NCBI GenBank assembly: GCA_020847855.1
Contig: JADLBH010000010.1
Span: forward strand, 1 to 64,000
Length of the DNA: 64,000 nucleotides
Reading direction: 5' to 3'
From: Fimbriimonadaceae bacterium
Lineage (GTDB): Bacteria > Armatimonadota > Fimbriimonadia > Fimbriimonadales > Fimbriimonadaceae
Shown here: piece after piece, positions 1,136 through 44,282 of the stretch
Layout: every line of letters begins with the position of its first letter
Numbering within the stretch: position 1 is the first letter of the stretch
Translations under genes and position numbers: made by a program
The notes under the pieces: generated by a model
The model's database searches: none
The model's input: the letters and a program-made list of their open reading frames with translations, nothing else
What the model was told of the DNA's origin: nothing

Positions 1136-1211
1136 TGGTGGAGATGATGGGATTCGAACCCACGACCTCTGCAGTGCGATTGCAGCGCTCTCCCAGCTGA
1201 GCTACATCCCC
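1136..1211 (-). tRNA. tRNA-Ala (anticodon CGC)
   Basis: The minus strand folds as a standard cloverleaf: 7-bp acceptor GGGGATG/CATCTCC, D stem GCTC/GAGC, anticodon stem CTGCA/TGCAG around loop ATCGCAC (anticodon CGC, decoding GCG), T arm GTGGG-TTCGAAT-CCCAT, discriminator A and encoded CCA (1136-1138). The body closely resembles bacterial tRNA-Ala. Confidence 0.95.
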
Positions 1212-19722: not shown

Positions 19723-20306
19723 AGGCCCAAGACCACCATGCGGAGAGCTTCCGGGTACGCCTCGTGCTCCAGTTCGAGCACCCGGTCCGCAAGCGAGTCG
19801 GGTGTGTCACCCGCGAGCACCGGGCAACTGCGGGTGAGGATCGCCTCGCCCTCGTCATACTCGTTCGTGACAAAGTGGACCGTGCAACCGGTCTCGGTAA
19901 CACCGGCTGCGAGAACCGCCTCGTGAACGCGGATCCCATACATCCCCTTCCCTCCGAACCGGGGTAGCAGAGCCGGATGGATGTTGAGGATACGTCCTTC
20001 GTATTCGCCGACGATCTCGCTTGGAAAGAGGCTCATGAAGCCGGCGAGGCACACCCAATCAATCCGTTCCTCCCGGAACAAGTCCAACAAGCGGGCCGAA
20101 TAGCCTGAGGATCGAGGATCGAGTACCTCCACGCGTGCGCCCAGAGCGCGGGCCCGGATCGCCGCCGGATTCCCGGACACGGGAGCGACCACGAGCCTGC
20201 CCTCCGCTGGGACATAGCCGGATGCACAGGCAGTAAGGAGGCGGGCCATGTTCGTGCCCCTTCCTTTCCGGCCGACCAGGATGGCGACACGCGGTAGTTC
20301 AGGCAT
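19719..20306 (-). CDS. purN: Phosphoribosylglycinamide formyltransferase (GART)
   Basis: A 195-aa formyltransferase with the catalytic segment NIHPALLPRFGGKGMYG (the Asn-His pair), the Asp partner in EYDEG and the phosphate-binding N-terminus (ILVGRKGRGTNM). It transfers a formyl group from 10-formyl-THF to GAR in purine synthesis. It overlaps the ALDH gene by 8 bp and plsC by 4 bp. Confidence 0.9.
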   Translation of the reverse strand: MPELPRVAILVGRKGRGTNMARLLTACASGYVPAEGRLVVAPVSGNPAAIRARALGARVEVLDPRSSGYSARLLDLFREERIDWVCLAGFMSLFPSEIVGEYEGRILNIHPALLPRFGGKGMYGIRVHEAVLAAGVTETGCTVHFVTNEYDEGEAILTRSCPVLAGDTPDSLADRVLELEHEAYPEALRMVVLGL

Positions 20307-21807
20307 CGAACCGGACGCCCTGGGCGAGTGCGGGCCGCTCGATTCCGTAGTACGTCGTGCTCGTCACCCGCCGCATGTAGGCCTTCCACGAGTCCGAGCC
20401 CGACTCCCGGCCCCCGCCCGTCTCCTTCTCACCGCCGAACGCCCCCCCGATCTCGGCCCCGCTCGTGCCGATATTTACGTTCACGATCCCACAGTCGGAA
20501 CGGTTCCGGAAGTACTCTGCCTCGCGCAGGTCCGTGGTCATGATCGCGGAGCTGAGACCCTGCGGCACCGCATTGTGCTCCTCAATGACCTCCTCCAAGG
20601 AGTCGTAAGGGATGACGTAGGTGAGCGGGGCGAAGGTCTCCTCGAACACCTCGGCAGATTGCCGTTCGAGGCGCACCAAGGCGGGCCGCACATAGTAGCC
20701 GCCAGGGAACCGGTCTTCCAGGGTTCGCCCCCCCCCGACGATCTGGGTCGCCCGAGGGCGGATTGCCTCGATCGCCCGCTCCATGTTCTCGAAGGCATCC
20801 TTGTCAATCAAGGGTCCGACCAGGGTTCCGGTCTCCAGCGGGTCGCCGATCCTCTGGGAGCCGATCTCTTCGAAGGCACGGGAGAGCCTTCCAAAGACAT
20901 CGTCTGCGATGCTGCTATGAACGAAGACCCTCCGAGTGCTCGTACAGCGCTGCCCGGCGGTGCCGACCGAGCCGAAGAGGATGCTGGGGATCGCAACCCC
21001 TAGGTCGGCGCTCTGGGTCACGACGATCGCATTGTTGCCCCCCAGCTCGAGAAGGGACCGCCCGAACCGGGCCGCGACCTTGGGCCCGACAATTCGACCC
21101 ATTCGGCATGAGCCGGTCGCGCTGACAAGTGGGATACGGGTGTCCTCGACCAGAGCGTTCCCCACCTCGGCCCTCCCGATGACAACCTGGCTCAAGCCCT
21201 CGGGCGCCTCAGCAAAGCCTGCGGCAACCTCATCGAAGATGCGCTGGCAGGCCAAAGCGGTGAGGGGGGTCTTCTCGCTCGGCTTCCAGAGGACAGGGTC
21301 GCCGCAGACGAGTGCCAGGGCCGCGTTCCAAGCCCAGACTGCAACGGGGAAGTTGAACGCGCTGATCACGGCGACCGGGCCCAAGGGCAGCCACAGCTCC
21401 TGCATCGAGTGGCGGGGGCGCTCACTGTGAATCGTGAGGCCATAGAGTTGGCGGCTGAGTCCGACGGCAAAGTCGCAGACGTCAATCATCTCTTGGACCT
21501 CGCCTCGGCCCTCTTCGAGGATCTTCCCGCACTCCAGCGTGACCAGGTGCGCAAGAGCCTCCTTCTCGGCTCGGAGCCTTTCGCCGAATCGCCGGACGAG
21601 CTCGCCGCGCACGGGCGCAGGGACGTCGCGCCAAGTACGGAAGGCGCGCACCGACCGTGCGACGCACTCCTGGACTTCCTCCACAGAATGGCTCCGGAGG
21701 CGGGCAAGTTCCGCTCCGTTGATCGGGGAGGTCACGGTCAAGTCCGCGTCAGTGCGGGCATCGAGGCCGGGCAGGAGGCTTTCGACGGGGGCGAGCATGG
21801 ATGGCAT
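20299..21807 (-). CDS. Aldehyde dehydrogenase, ALDH7 (alpha-aminoadipic semialdehyde dehydrogenase) type
   Basis: A 502-aa NAD-dependent dehydrogenase. Catalytic Cys is in GTAGQRCTSTRR and the general-base Glu in LELGGNNAIV. The NAD site includes SAFNFPVAVWAWN, and the C-terminal end (GIVNVNIGTSGAEIGGAFGGEKETGGGRESGS) is typical of ALDH7A1 (antiquitin), which oxidises alpha-aminoadipate semialdehyde/P6C in lysine breakdown. The frame is open for about 97 codons upstream through tRNA-Sec, so I start at ATG 21807; ATG 21798 is possible. Confidence 0.88.
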   Translation of the reverse strand: MPSMLAPVESLLPGLDARTDADLTVTSPINGAELARLRSHSVEEVQECVARSVRAFRTWRDVPAPVRGELVRRFGERLRAEKEALAHLVTLECGKILEEGRGEVQEMIDVCDFAVGLSRQLYGLTIHSERPRHSMQELWLPLGPVAVISAFNFPVAVWAWNAALALVCGDPVLWKPSEKTPLTALACQRIFDEVAAGFAEAPEGLSQVVIGRAEVGNALVEDTRIPLVSATGSCRMGRIVGPKVAARFGRSLLELGGNNAIVVTQSADLGVAIPSILFGSVGTAGQRCTSTRRVFVHSSIADDVFGRLSRAFEEIGSQRIGDPLETGTLVGPLIDKDAFENMERAIEAIRPRATQIVGGGRTLEDRFPGGYYVRPALVRLERQSAEVFEETFAPLTYVIPYDSLEEVIEEHNAVPQGLSSAIMTTDLREAEYFRNRSDCGIVNVNIGTSGAEIGGAFGGEKETGGGRESGSDSWKAYMRRVTSTTYYGIERPALAQGVRFDA

Positions 21808-21846: not shown

Positions 21847-21941
21847 TGGCGGGAGCGTGTAGGAATCGAACCCACCCAACGCCTTGTGGACGTCACAACG
21901 GTTTTGAAGACCGCGGGGCACACCAGCACCCATTCGCCCCC
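21847..21941 (-). tRNA. selC: tRNA-Sec (selenocysteine, anticodon UCA)
   Basis: A 95-nt minus-strand gene with all tRNA-Sec hallmarks: long acceptor (GGGGGCGA against ACGCTCCC, last pair A.A), a 6-bp D stem GGGTGC/GTGCCC with 4-nt loop, anticodon stem GCGGT/ACCGT around CTTCAAA (anticodon TCA), a long variable arm (TGACGTC/GGCGTTG around CACAA), T arm GTGGG-TTCGATT-CCTAC, discriminator G and encoded CCA. The length equals that of E. coli selC. It lies 40 bp upstream of the ALDH gene. It shows the genome decodes UGA as selenocysteine, in agreement with the UGA in selD. Confidence 0.95.
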
Positions 21942-22027: not shown

Positions 22028-22456
22028 ATGGAACTCACGCTCCGATGGCAGGAACCGATGACCTTCACCGGGAAGACCCCGACCGGGGCAACGATCACGT
22101 TGGACTCTCATCCGGAATCGGGAGGCACGGGGAACGGCCCGACCCCGGTCGAGGCGATGGTGGCGGCGGCCGCGGCGTGCTCGGGGATGGACGTAGTCGC
22201 CGTACTCAAGAAGAAGCGCCAGCCCGTGGACGGTTACGAGGTGACGGCCATCGAGGAACGCGGGCCTGCGGGGGAGTACCCCAGGCCGCTGCTTCGCCTC
22301 AAGGTTCTGCACAGGATTTGGGGAGAGGGCCTCGATCCGGCCGCCGTCGCCCGAGCCGTGGAGCTGAGCGACCAGAAGTACTGCACCGTGCTCGCCACGC
22401 TCCGCCAGACCGTCGAAGTGGAAAGCGACTGGGAGGTCGCCGACACTACGGCCTGA
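22028..22456 (+). CDS. OsmC/Ohr-family peroxide-reducing or hydroperoxide-sensing protein
   Basis: A 142-aa OsmC-like protein. The two conserved Cys are in AAACSGMDVVAVL (helix start) and QKYCTVLATL, with GPTPVEAMVAAAAACS upstream as usual. OsmC proteins reduce organic peroxides with these Cys. It stands alone on the plus strand, diverges from the tRNA-Sec gene and converges with the Wza-like gene (11-bp overlap of ends). The ATG at 22028 gives the normal length. Confidence 0.85.
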   Translation: MELTLRWQEPMTFTGKTPTGATITLDSHPESGGTGNGPTPVEAMVAAAAACSGMDVVAVLKKKRQPVDGYEVTAIEERGPAGEYPRPLLRLKVLHRIWGEGLDPAAVARAVELSDQKYCTVLATLRQTVEVESDWEVADTTA

Positions 22457-40737: not shown

Positions 40738-43296
40738 ATGCGTCCACAGACGCCGATGATGAGACAGTACTGGGAGGCGAAAGAGGCCCACCCGGACGCC
40801 CTCATCGCGATGCGGGTCGGCGATTTCTACGAGTTCTACGGAACCGATGCCGAGACCGCCGCCGGTGTCCTCGAGATCACGCTCACCGGTAGGGAGGACG
40901 GGAAGAACGGGAGGATCCCGATGTCCGGGGTGCCCTACCATTCCATCGAGCGGTACTTGGCCAGGCTCGTGCGGGCGGGCCACAAGGTCGCGCTCTGCGA
41001 GCAGCTCGAGGATCCCAAGCTCGCCAAGGGGCTCGTCAAGCGAGGGGTGAGCCGCGTGCTCAGCGCAGGGACCCTCGTCGAGGAGGGGCTCCTCGAATCG
41101 GGGGCCAACAACTTCCTCGCCGCCGTCGCGCTAGTGGACGGCAAAGCCGGGCTGGCCGTGCTCGACCTTTCGACCGGCGAGTTCATGGCGACCGAGGACT
41201 ATGGCGAGAAGGGTTGGGAGCGGGTGCTGGGGGAGCTTTCGCGGCTTCGGCCCGCGGAGGTGTTGGTCCCGGAGCAGGGTTGTGAGGTCCCGATGGGCGA
41301 GGCGGTGCAAACGCCATCCAGCCCGCTCCCACCGGGGAGGGCAGTGGCCCAGCTCACCCGCCAGTTCGGAGTGGCCTCGCTGCGGGGATTTGGACTCGAG
41401 GACCGGGACGCCGCGGTGACCGCTGCCTCCATGCTCGTGAGCTACGCCGGGGCGAGCGGGCTCTCCCTCGGCCACGTCTCCGGAATCGCGCACTACTCGA
41501 TCGAGGGATTCATGCAGCTCGATTCTTCCACCCGGCGGGCGCTGGAGCTCACGCAAAACTCGTCGGACGGGAGCCGTAGGCTCACCTTGCTCGCCACGCT
41601 GGATCGGTGCTCGACCCCGATGGGCTCCCGTCTCCTGCGGAGGTGGGTCGAGCAACCGTTGCTCGATCCGGTGGAGATCGAGCGTCGGCTCGACGCGGTG
41701 GCCCGATTCGTGGAGCACGGGGGGACGCGGGCCGACGCGCGCAACGCTTTGTCAACGCTCGGCGATATGGAACGGCTCGTCGCTCGTGCGGTCTCAGGCG
41801 TCGCCGGTCCGCGTGATCTCCTGCGCCTCCGGTCCGCGCTTGCCGCGATTCCCCGGCTCGACGACACCCTGCGGAAGGTGGGCGTCGGGTTGGTCCACGA
41901 CCTCCGCGAGCAACTCGGCAACCATGCCGAGATGGATCTCAAGCTCCGCACGGCCCTCTCCGAGGACGCCCCGCACCATGCTCGGGAGGGTGGCTGCTTC
42001 CGCGAGGGGTTCGATGCAGAGCTCGACAAGCTGCGCGAGATCGAGCGCGACGGGAAGACCTTCATCGCCAGGCTCGAACAGCAGGAGCGGGAGTCGAGCG
42101 GGATTGACAAACTGAAGGTGGGATACAATTCCGTCTTCGGTTACTACCTCGAGGTGCCCCGAAGCCAGGCGGACAAGGTGCCCGCCCACTATGTCCGCAA
42201 GCAGACGACGGCCGCCGCCGAGCGGTTTATCACGGCGGAGGTCAAAGAGCACGAGAGCGCCGTCCTCGGGGCGCAAGAGAAAGCGGCCCAACTGGAGACC
42301 GAGCTTTTCGACCGACTGAGGGCGGAGGTGGCCGCCGAGGCGCCCGCGATCGTCGCCAGTGCCAGGGCCGTGGCCTCGCTCGACGTCTTAGCCGCCCTCG
42401 CAGAGGCCGCAGTGAGGAACCGGTACGTCCGCCCCGAGATCGCGGAGTTGGATGGGTTGGAGATCGTTCAGGGCCGTCACCCGGTGGTCGAGGCCCAAGG
42501 AGGCTTCGTGCCCAACGACACAACGCTCGATGGAGAGACCCGTTGCGTCGTGCTCACCGGGCCGAACATGAGCGGGAAGAGCACTTACCTCCGACAGACC
42601 GCGCTCATCGTCCTCATGGCCCAGATCGGCTCGTTCGTCCCTGCGTCCGGGTGCCGGCTCAGTCCCTGCGACCGGATCTTTACTCGGGTCGGGGCGAGGG
42701 ACGAGCTCGCCTTGGGACAGTCCACGTTCATGGTGGAGATGACGGAGAGCGCGAACATCCTCAACCATGCGACCGAGCGGTCCCTCGTGGTCCTGGACGA
42801 AGTCGGGCGCGGTACTTCCACCTTTGACGGGATGGCGATCGCCTGGGCGATGTGCGAGCATCTCTCGCAGGTCGGCTGCAAGACCCTCTTCGCGACCCAC
42901 TACCACCAGTTGAACGCGCTCGCGGGCCAAGTCTCCGGTATAGCGAACTGTCGGGTCGCCGTCGAGGAGCACGAGGGTGGGATCGTATGGTCGCACCGGG
43001 TGCTTCCTGGCGGGACCGACCGATCCTATGGCATTCACGTAGCCAAGATGGCTGGGGTTCCCGCCAGTGTGCTCCGCCGTGCCGAGGGCGTGCTCGCGGA
43101 GCTTGAGGGCACGGAACGGCCGGTCACGGCCTCCGCCCCGCAGGAGAGCCGGTTGCAAATGTCCCTCTTCGTGCCGGACGATTCCCTCGCGCGGGAGATC
43201 GAAGCCACCGACGTCTCCAGCATGACCCCGATCGAGGCCCTCGTGCAAATTGACCAGTGGAAGAAGCGGATCACTGAAGCAGCTTCGAAGGGCTAG
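40738..43296 (+). CDS. mutS: DNA mismatch repair protein MutS
   Basis: An 852-aa protein. The mismatch-sensing Phe-x-Glu is in VGDFYEFYGTD near the N-terminus. The ATPase has Walker A TGPNMSGKSTYLRQ, Walker B VVLDEVGRGTSTFDG and the ATHYHQL switch. A C-terminal helix-turn-helix (VAKMAGVPASVLRRAEGVL) follows. The start is ATG 40738, upstream of which the frame is open but overlaps the divergent holin-like gene. MutL is not in the window. It ends convergently with selD, the stops overlapping by 4 bp. Confidence 0.95.
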   Translation: MRPQTPMMRQYWEAKEAHPDALIAMRVGDFYEFYGTDAETAAGVLEITLTGREDGKNGRIPMSGVPYHSIERYLARLVRAGHKVALCEQLEDPKLAKGLVKRGVSRVLSAGTLVEEGLLESGANNFLAAVALVDGKAGLAVLDLSTGEFMATEDYGEKGWERVLGELSRLRPAEVLVPEQGCEVPMGEAVQTPSSPLPPGRAVAQLTRQFGVASLRGFGLEDRDAAVTAASMLVSYAGASGLSLGHVSGIAHYSIEGFMQLDSSTRRALELTQNSSDGSRRLTLLATLDRCSTPMGSRLLRRWVEQPLLDPVEIERRLDAVARFVEHGGTRADARNALSTLGDMERLVARAVSGVAGPRDLLRLRSALAAIPRLDDTLRKVGVGLVHDLREQLGNHAEMDLKLRTALSEDAPHHAREGGCFREGFDAELDKLREIERDGKTFIARLEQQERESSGIDKLKVGYNSVFGYYLEVPRSQADKVPAHYVRKQTTAAAERFITAEVKEHESAVLGAQEKAAQLETELFDRLRAEVAAEAPAIVASARAVASLDVLAALAEAAVRNRYVRPEIAELDGLEIVQGRHPVVEAQGGFVPNDTTLDGETRCVVLTGPNMSGKSTYLRQTALIVLMAQIGSFVPASGCRLSPCDRIFTRVGARDELALGQSTFMVEMTESANILNHATERSLVVLDEVGRGTSTFDGMAIAWAMCEHLSQVGCKTLFATHYHQLNALAGQVSGIANCRVAVEEHEGGIVWSHRVLPGGTDRSYGIHVAKMAGVPASVLRRAEGVLAELEGTERPVTASAPQESRLQMSLFVPDDSLAREIEATDVSSMTPIEALVQIDQWKKRITEAASKG

Positions 43297-44282
43297 ACCA
43301 CCCGAAGAGATGGTCCTCCCTCCACGATCCGGCCGATCTCGACGAACCCTTCCACGTTGCCCGCGCATGCGACCGCGAGGCCCCCGCTGGTCTGAGGGTC
43401 GAGGACGACCTCCCGCCGCCAATCGGGGACCGAAGGGTCGAACTCGATCGAGTCCGCCCAATGGGCGAGGTTTCGGCGCGCGCCTCCAGTGCTGTGGCCC
43501 TCGGCCAGGAGCCTCTCGACCCCTGGCAAGACCGGAAAGGCTACTGCCCTCACCTCAATCGTCACCTTGCTGGCTTTTGCGATGTGGGAGAGGTGCCCTG
43601 CCAGTCCGAAGCCGGTGACGTCGGTGGCACAGCGTGCCCCGGCCGCGAGCGCCGCCCGCGAAGCGTCCCGGTTCAGCCTCTTCATGGCCTCAACTGCCGC
43701 CGCAAGCTCCTCCGGCGTCGCTCCGTCGTTCTTCGCGGCGGTCGCGACGATCCCCGTGCCCAGCGGCTTGCTGAGCCAGAGACGGTCTCCAGGCTGCGCG
43801 AGGTCGTTCTGGAGGGTTCTCTCTGGGGTGACGATGCCCGTGACGGCCATGCCGAACTTCGGCTCGGGGTCGTTCACGGTGTGCCCGCCCAAAAGCACCG
43901 CGCCCGCCTCGATGGTCTTGTCGTGCATCCCTTGGAGCACGGCGGCCCACACTTCCGCAGGTGCCTGGTCAGGGTCGAAGCAAGCAACGTTCAGCGCGGT
44001 GAGGGGGGTCCCGCCCATCGCATACACGTCGCTCAAGGCGTTCGCCGCGGCAATTTGCCCGTAGTCGAAAGGATCGTCCACGATGGGGGGGAAGAAGTCC
44101 AAGGTCTGGACGATCGCACTGCCGTCGGGCATGACGAAGACCCCCGCGTCGTCCGAGGTCGAAAAACCGACCAACAGCCGCGGGTCGTCACGTTGAGGAA
44201 GGCGACCGAGCACGTCGGCCAACTGGGCAGGGCCCAGCTTGCCCGCTCAACCAGCGCAAGAGGCGAGTTGCGTCAACCGCAC
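43293..44282 (-). CDS. selD: Selenide, water dikinase SelD, itself a selenoprotein (in-frame UGA/Sec12)
   Basis: A 329-aa enzyme (with Sec) that makes selenophosphate from selenide and ATP. A conventional call starts at an internal TTG (44222) and misses the active site. Reading through the TGA at 44247-44249, the GTG at 44282 gives MRLTQLASCAG-U-AGKLGP, matching the SelD motif C/U-x2-K (E. coli Cys17/Lys20) with Sec at residue 12 and Lys15. An in-frame TAG 12 bases upstream of the GTG limits the start. Later motifs agree: TLDFFPPIVDDPFDYG, NALSDVYAMGG, TDVTGFGLAGHL and QTSGGLAVA. It follows the DprE2-like gene by 13 bp. The Sec replaces the catalytic Cys. Confidence 0.93.
44217..44243 (-). 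promoter_or_regulatory. SECIS-like hairpin directly after the selD UGA
   Basis: Three bases after the UGA the mRNA can form a 12-position stem (GGCAAGCUGGGC against GCCCAGUUGGCC) with a CCU loop, eleven of the twelve positions pairing (two as part of wobble or near a single A.G mismatch). Bacterial SECIS elements that recruit SelB lie at this place. The stem is inside codons 14-22 and must serve both roles. Confidence 0.7.

Follow-up and report, generated by a model that had tools for sequence, protein, structure and literature searches.

Does the 95-nt gene at 21847–21941, in which the last layer of the acceptor stem places an A opposite an A, encode a genuine selenocysteine tRNA, and is this mismatch a peculiarity of one gene? 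The window, i.e., the whole stretch of 64,000 nt analysed here, is contig 10 of the genome (2.5 Mb, 97% complete) of a Fimbriimonadaceae bacterium. The initial annotation of this DNA had suggested an Armatimonadota-type genome, and rightly so, as the genome belongs to the Fimbriimonadaceae family. Judging from its sequence, the gene is almost certainly the selenocysteine tRNA (selC) of this bacterium, serving the insertion of selenocysteine (Sec) at UGA. It thereby documents, in a little-studied member of the Armatimonadota, the use of selenocysteine in Fimbriimonadaceae, for which no papers on the subject were found in the literature searched.

The tRNA-Sec gene

The following features define the gene:

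21847..21941, minus strand: tRNA-Sec gene (selC), 95 nt, with encoded CCA (ARAGORN; Rfam RF01852; the best tRNA-Sec match of the genome)
21905..21907, minus strand: anticodon UCA, reading UGA (ARAGORN; sequence)
21934, minus strand: A (position 7a/8), the 5′ member of the eighth acceptor layer (sequence, alignment)
21858, minus strand: A66, its partner in the A.A mismatch (sequence, alignment)

The initial annotation had named a tRNA-Sec here, leaving the strand unstated, and had staked this name on a covariance score above the threshold. ARAGORN reports a tRNA-SeC with anticodon tca exactly at 21847–21941 on the minus strand, and the same stretch scores 69.5 bits (E 3.9e-12) with the Rfam tRNA-Sec model RF01852, above its curated gathering score of 47, so that the identification is confirmed by both methods. 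Moreover, it is the best RF01852 match in the whole genome by a wide margin. The runners-up, with 48.2 and 47.1 bits, are just above the Rfam cut-off, and ARAGORN classifies both as tRNA-Ser; overall, the matches that follow the tRNA-Sec gene (48 bits and below) correspond to serine, arginine, glycine, and leucine tRNAs. The sole other tRNA in the window is tRNA-Ala with anticodon CGC (1136–1211, minus strand).

The UCA anticodon, 6-bp D stem, long variable arm, and encoded CCA, all listed in the initial annotation, can be read directly on the minus strand. The acceptor strands GGGGGCG and CGCUCCC form seven pairs, including one G.U, and are followed by the eighth layer, where A 21934 faces A 21858, the mismatch that the initial annotation had placed at the last acceptor pair; the linker AU comes next. 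The D arm, GGGUGC-UGGU-GUGCCC, has a 6-bp stem and a 4-nt loop, the anticodon arm is GCGGU-CUUCAAA-ACCGU, the variable arm has a 6-bp stem (GACGUC/GGCGUU), and the T arm, GUGGG-UUCGAUU-CCUAC, has a 5-bp stem with no bulge. The 3′ end consists of G73 and the encoded CCA. The acceptor and T arms together have 13 layers (8+5), of which 12 are standard pairs and one is A.A. Thus, the score, anticodon, D stem and loop, variable arm, G73 and CCA, the 13 layers, and the presence of selA, selB, and selD are all those of RF01852 members, and by its sequence the gene is a genuine, ordinary tRNA-Sec with the usual features of its family. The basis of the identification is the score with the covariance model, the ARAGORN call, and conservation; the folding energy does not exceed chance (z –0.75) and is uninformative. 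A scan for promoters of the sigma-70-like type found none near the gene.

Selenocysteine machinery and UGA-containing genes

The genome contains selB (316.9 bits, curated cut-off 242) and selA (434.6 bits, curated cut-off 268), and selD is found in the window (TIGR00476, 368 bits, with 361.8 bits in a separate search; cut-off 125). The sel genes are scattered, with selD located 21 kb from the tRNA-Sec gene in the same contig, and selA and selB in other contigs. Of 61 relatives, 34 have all three of tRNA-Sec, selA, and selD, and 26 have none of them. The sole exception, G035 (contig C405, L042; 74% complete), has a tRNA-Sec and no selA or selD match, probably due to missing sequence.

Two side observations concern these genes. 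In one relative, G038, the tRNA-Sec follows immediately after selD in the same orientation (contig C4, 80606–80695 and 80799–81722; L024/L232), unlike the genome studied here. The SelA protein of the latter (L018:1489–2784, minus strand) matches the family profile only from position 65–69 onward, its N-terminal part having diverged, as also seen in a few relatives (G005, G002, G031, G029); in other bacteria, the N-terminal region of SelA binds the D arm of the tRNA.

The selD gene itself is interrupted by a single in-frame UGA, followed by two predicted hairpins:

43293..44282, minus strand: selD (selenide, water dikinase) with in-frame UGA and a likely GTG start (TIGR00476; read-through translation)
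44247..44249, minus strand: UGA at the catalytic Cys/Sec position, CAG-U-AGK (translation; UGA in relatives, Cys in two)
44221..44239, minus strand: first of the two hairpins, past the UGA and ahead of the SECIS-type hairpin (alifold and covariation)
44204..44220, minus strand: predicted SECIS-type hairpin with apical loop CGUGC (alifold and covariation, 27 selD sequences)

At this position, nearly all relatives have UGA, and two (G040, G001) have Cys. An in-frame UGA is seen in 30 of the 34 selD matches of the relatives; two further matches, G005 and G010, the latter matched in part only, have no stop in the matched stretch. Jointly, the two hairpins show covariation of 0.223 compared to the shuffled mean of 0.102, with none of 500 shuffles reaching this value, and slid versions of the hairpins, used as a control, yield at most 0.083. 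The published model of the bacterial SECIS calls for a G within the first two positions of the loop, with G or U next to it, a distance of 16–37 nt from the UGA, and a minimum free energy of –7.5 kcal/mol or lower (PMC13188914). The loop CGUGC, whose GU is invariant and which starts 32 nt past the UGA, agrees with this model in both sequence and spacing, whereas the 17-nt hairpin alone, at –6.6 kcal/mol, is slightly weaker than the limit; the 48-nt stretch folds at –24.3. SelD is thus itself a predicted selenoprotein.

One more candidate is encoded elsewhere in the same genome:

L278:1495–1728 of contig C19, plus strand: SelW-like selenoprotein gene, Rdx family, CQAU (CxxU motif and hairpin)

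Here, a SECIS-type hairpin with a GGU loop is located 22 nt past the UGA, and a normal gene caller would miss or truncate the gene. In the window, five TGA-interrupted ORF candidates besides selD were considered and none was convincing, in a scan that is insensitive to short upstream parts, as selD itself was not listed by it; the two best candidates look like ordinary gene junctions. No in-frame UGA was observed in the matched stretches of the AhpD-like, AhpC/TSA, and molybdopterin oxidoreductase genes of the genome, three families in which Sec is frequent. The number of predicted selenoprotein genes is hence at least two, selD and the SelW-like gene, this list being incomplete.

The initial annotation held that the tRNA proves a UGA-decoding capacity. 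This overstates what a lone tRNA gene can show, but the capacity is well supported when selA, selB, the UGA-containing selD, and the SelW-like gene are considered. Since the sel genes, their co-occurrence, the UGA and hairpins of selD, and the SelW-like gene all point the same way, it is very probable that UGA stands for selenocysteine in this genome; the diverged N-terminal part of SelA, the negative result for a sigma-70-like promoter, and the slightly weak selD hairpin speak against this picture. By homology, seryl-tRNA synthetase would charge the tRNA with serine through recognition of G73 and its long variable arm; serine would then be converted to selenocysteine by SelA using selenophosphate from SelD, and SelB would deliver the product to UGA codons followed by a SECIS hairpin, including those of selD and the SelW-like gene.

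The eighth acceptor layer and alternative readings of the locus

The initial annotation had singled out the A.A layer as a peculiarity; the mismatch is real, but a non-Watson–Crick eighth layer recurs across the phylum and in Clostridia. It is observed in 51 of 53 tRNA-Sec from genomes of the order. In other Armatimonadota families, the count is 50 of 62, a somewhat generous value, as this set comprises tRNA-Sec with an encoded GCCA end from families outside the order, and at least three of the six phylum sequences excluded for lacking this end have a standard G-C. Beyond the phylum, 72 of 78 tRNA-Sec, mostly from Clostridia, selected by the D-arm and anticodon-arm pattern and including many close relatives, also have a non-Watson–Crick eighth layer. 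Pseudomonadota are represented in this survey by Escherichia coli only, with C-G. Within the order, this layer is most often G.A, A.A, or C.A; G.A is the most frequent variant among the other Armatimonadota, while G.A and G.G prevail in Clostridia. The other seven acceptor layers are never broken in the Armatimonadota sets. The A.A layer is therefore no defect, a non-standard eighth layer being the rule in the phylum and in many Clostridia.

Mapped on a rough tree of the order built from SelD, the eighth layer has at least ten changes of its 5′ base and at least four of base 66, and yet just one sampled genome reaches a standard pair. Moreover, U opposite A66 occurs in none of 48 cases in the order, the window included. 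This pattern looks like avoidance of standard pairs rather than neglect, for a set of related sequences and a rough tree.

In E. coli, C7-G66 (the eighth layer), G49.U65, and C50-G64 are reported to favour SelB and repel EF-Tu (PMC9976931); the counterparts here are A.A, G-C, and U-A. The Sec elongation factor of animals depends on a non-standard pair, 5a:67b, in the acceptor stem of their tRNA-Sec (PMC7609411), and by analogy the A.A mismatch may have a similar role. The acceptor and T arms would retain 13 stacked layers with A.A at the junction between them, and the mismatch could be either tolerated or kept, if 13 layers are what SelB needs and EF-Tu has to be excluded, with the eighth pair free or selected to be non-standard. 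We tentatively suggest, as a possibility that we consider somewhat less probable than its opposite, that in Armatimonadota and many Clostridia selection keeps this layer non-Watson–Crick. The resulting distortion of the backbone would be recognized by SelB or lead to rejection by EF-Tu, so that the layer would correspond, in bacteria, to the animal pair.

Published departures from the 8/5 geometry are the 7/5 and 8/4 types as well as bulged forms (PMC5330540, PMC7609411). The open papers searched do not mention an eighth layer that is recurrently non-standard, and a description may still exist elsewhere. The gene itself is a known kind of tRNA, and it is this recurrence that is little noticed. 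The structural point is small, but can be tested: what textbooks describe as the “8-bp acceptor stem” of tRNA-Sec in bacteria consists, in at least two phyla, of seven pairs and a non-standard layer, and this layer is one of the three E. coli pairs reported for SelB acceptance and EF-Tu rejection.

The same mismatch could be taken as the first sign of decay in a tRNA-Sec on its way to a pseudogene, the more so as its 69.5 bits in Rfam rank toward the low end for the order, where scores reach 81 bits. Yet, 50 of the 52 other members of the order have a mismatch in the same layer, with all of their other seven acceptor pairs intact, and selA, selB, and the UGA-containing selD are intact in the same genome, which makes decay highly improbable. 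Equally improbable is a tRNA-Sec-like molecule of another kind, that is, an allo-tRNA inserting serine or a selC* tRNA-Cys reading UGA. These molecules have a long variable arm and a similar acceptor stem, and some of them read UGA (PMC7609411), but the single-copy gene studied here combines the UCA anticodon with a full set of sel genes and strictly co-occurs with selA and selD. Its geometry differs as well: allo-tRNAs require a 12-bp acceptor domain of the 8/4 or 9/3 type, while here the layers are 8+5, and selC* tRNA-Cys requires U73, the 8/4 geometry, and a bulged A51a, while here G73 and a 5-bp unbulged T stem are observed. The 7/5 form of tRNA-Sec was also considered and rejected, as it requires seven residues between the T stem and G73, and here there are eight, ACGCUCCC.

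The initial annotation also drew attention to an ALDH7 gene next to the tRNA. The genes flanking the tRNA-Sec are:

20299..21807, minus strand: ALDH7-type gene, L-piperidine-6-carboxylate dehydrogenase, downstream (NF050084, 739.1 bits, cut-off 730)
22028..22456, plus strand: OsmC-like gene, divergent, upstream (ORF; PF02566, E 1e-15)

The neighbour is real: it starts (21807) 39 nt from the tRNA gene on the same strand, and no terminator-like site was found between them. Among the loci of relatives that were examined, an ALDH7 gene follows the tRNA-Sec in just two further genomes, both from the nearest genus; at the other loci of the order, none was found within 1.5 kb on either side. As the ALDH7 gene moreover has no UGA, a functional unit of the two genes seems quite unlikely, if slightly less so than the readings above, and the adjacency is probably incidental, with no functional link.

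Comparison with known tRNA-Sec types

As a selenocysteine tRNA, the gene resembles bacterial selC (RF01852) of the 8/5 type known from E. coli, with which it has in common the UCA anticodon, the D arm (6-bp stem, 4-nt loop), the long variable arm, G73, the encoded CCA, and the 8+5 layers. It differs in the eighth layer, A.A instead of C-G, and in the next T-stem pairs, G-C and U-A instead of G.U and C-G (PMC9976931).

The tRNA-Sec of Clostridia (Mogibacterium and relatives) has an identical 31-base pattern of the D arm and anticodon arm (29 fixed bases) and an eighth layer that is, in Clostridia usually, non-Watson–Crick as well. However, in Clostridia this layer is mostly G.A or G.G, and the strands of layers 5–8 differ in sequence. 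Several Clostridial genomes (Mogibacterium and others) have two matches to the pattern each (L175/L177, L182/L152, L179/L180, L210/L218, L159/L219, L160/L211), and so probably two tRNA-Sec genes.

With the 7/5 tRNA-Sec (Cloacimonetes type and others; PMC5330540) the gene has in common only seven standard acceptor pairs, but here each acceptor strand has eight bases, giving 13 layers, while in the 7/5 type seven residues separate the T stem from G73. Finally, like the tRNA-Sec of vertebrates and flies with the 5a:67b pair (PMC7609411), its acceptor arm contains a non-standard pair that is conserved; in those animals, the pair has been shown to matter for the Sec elongation factor, and by analogy it may do so here. 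In the animal molecules, this pair occupies another position, within the 9/4 geometry and the eukaryotic machinery.
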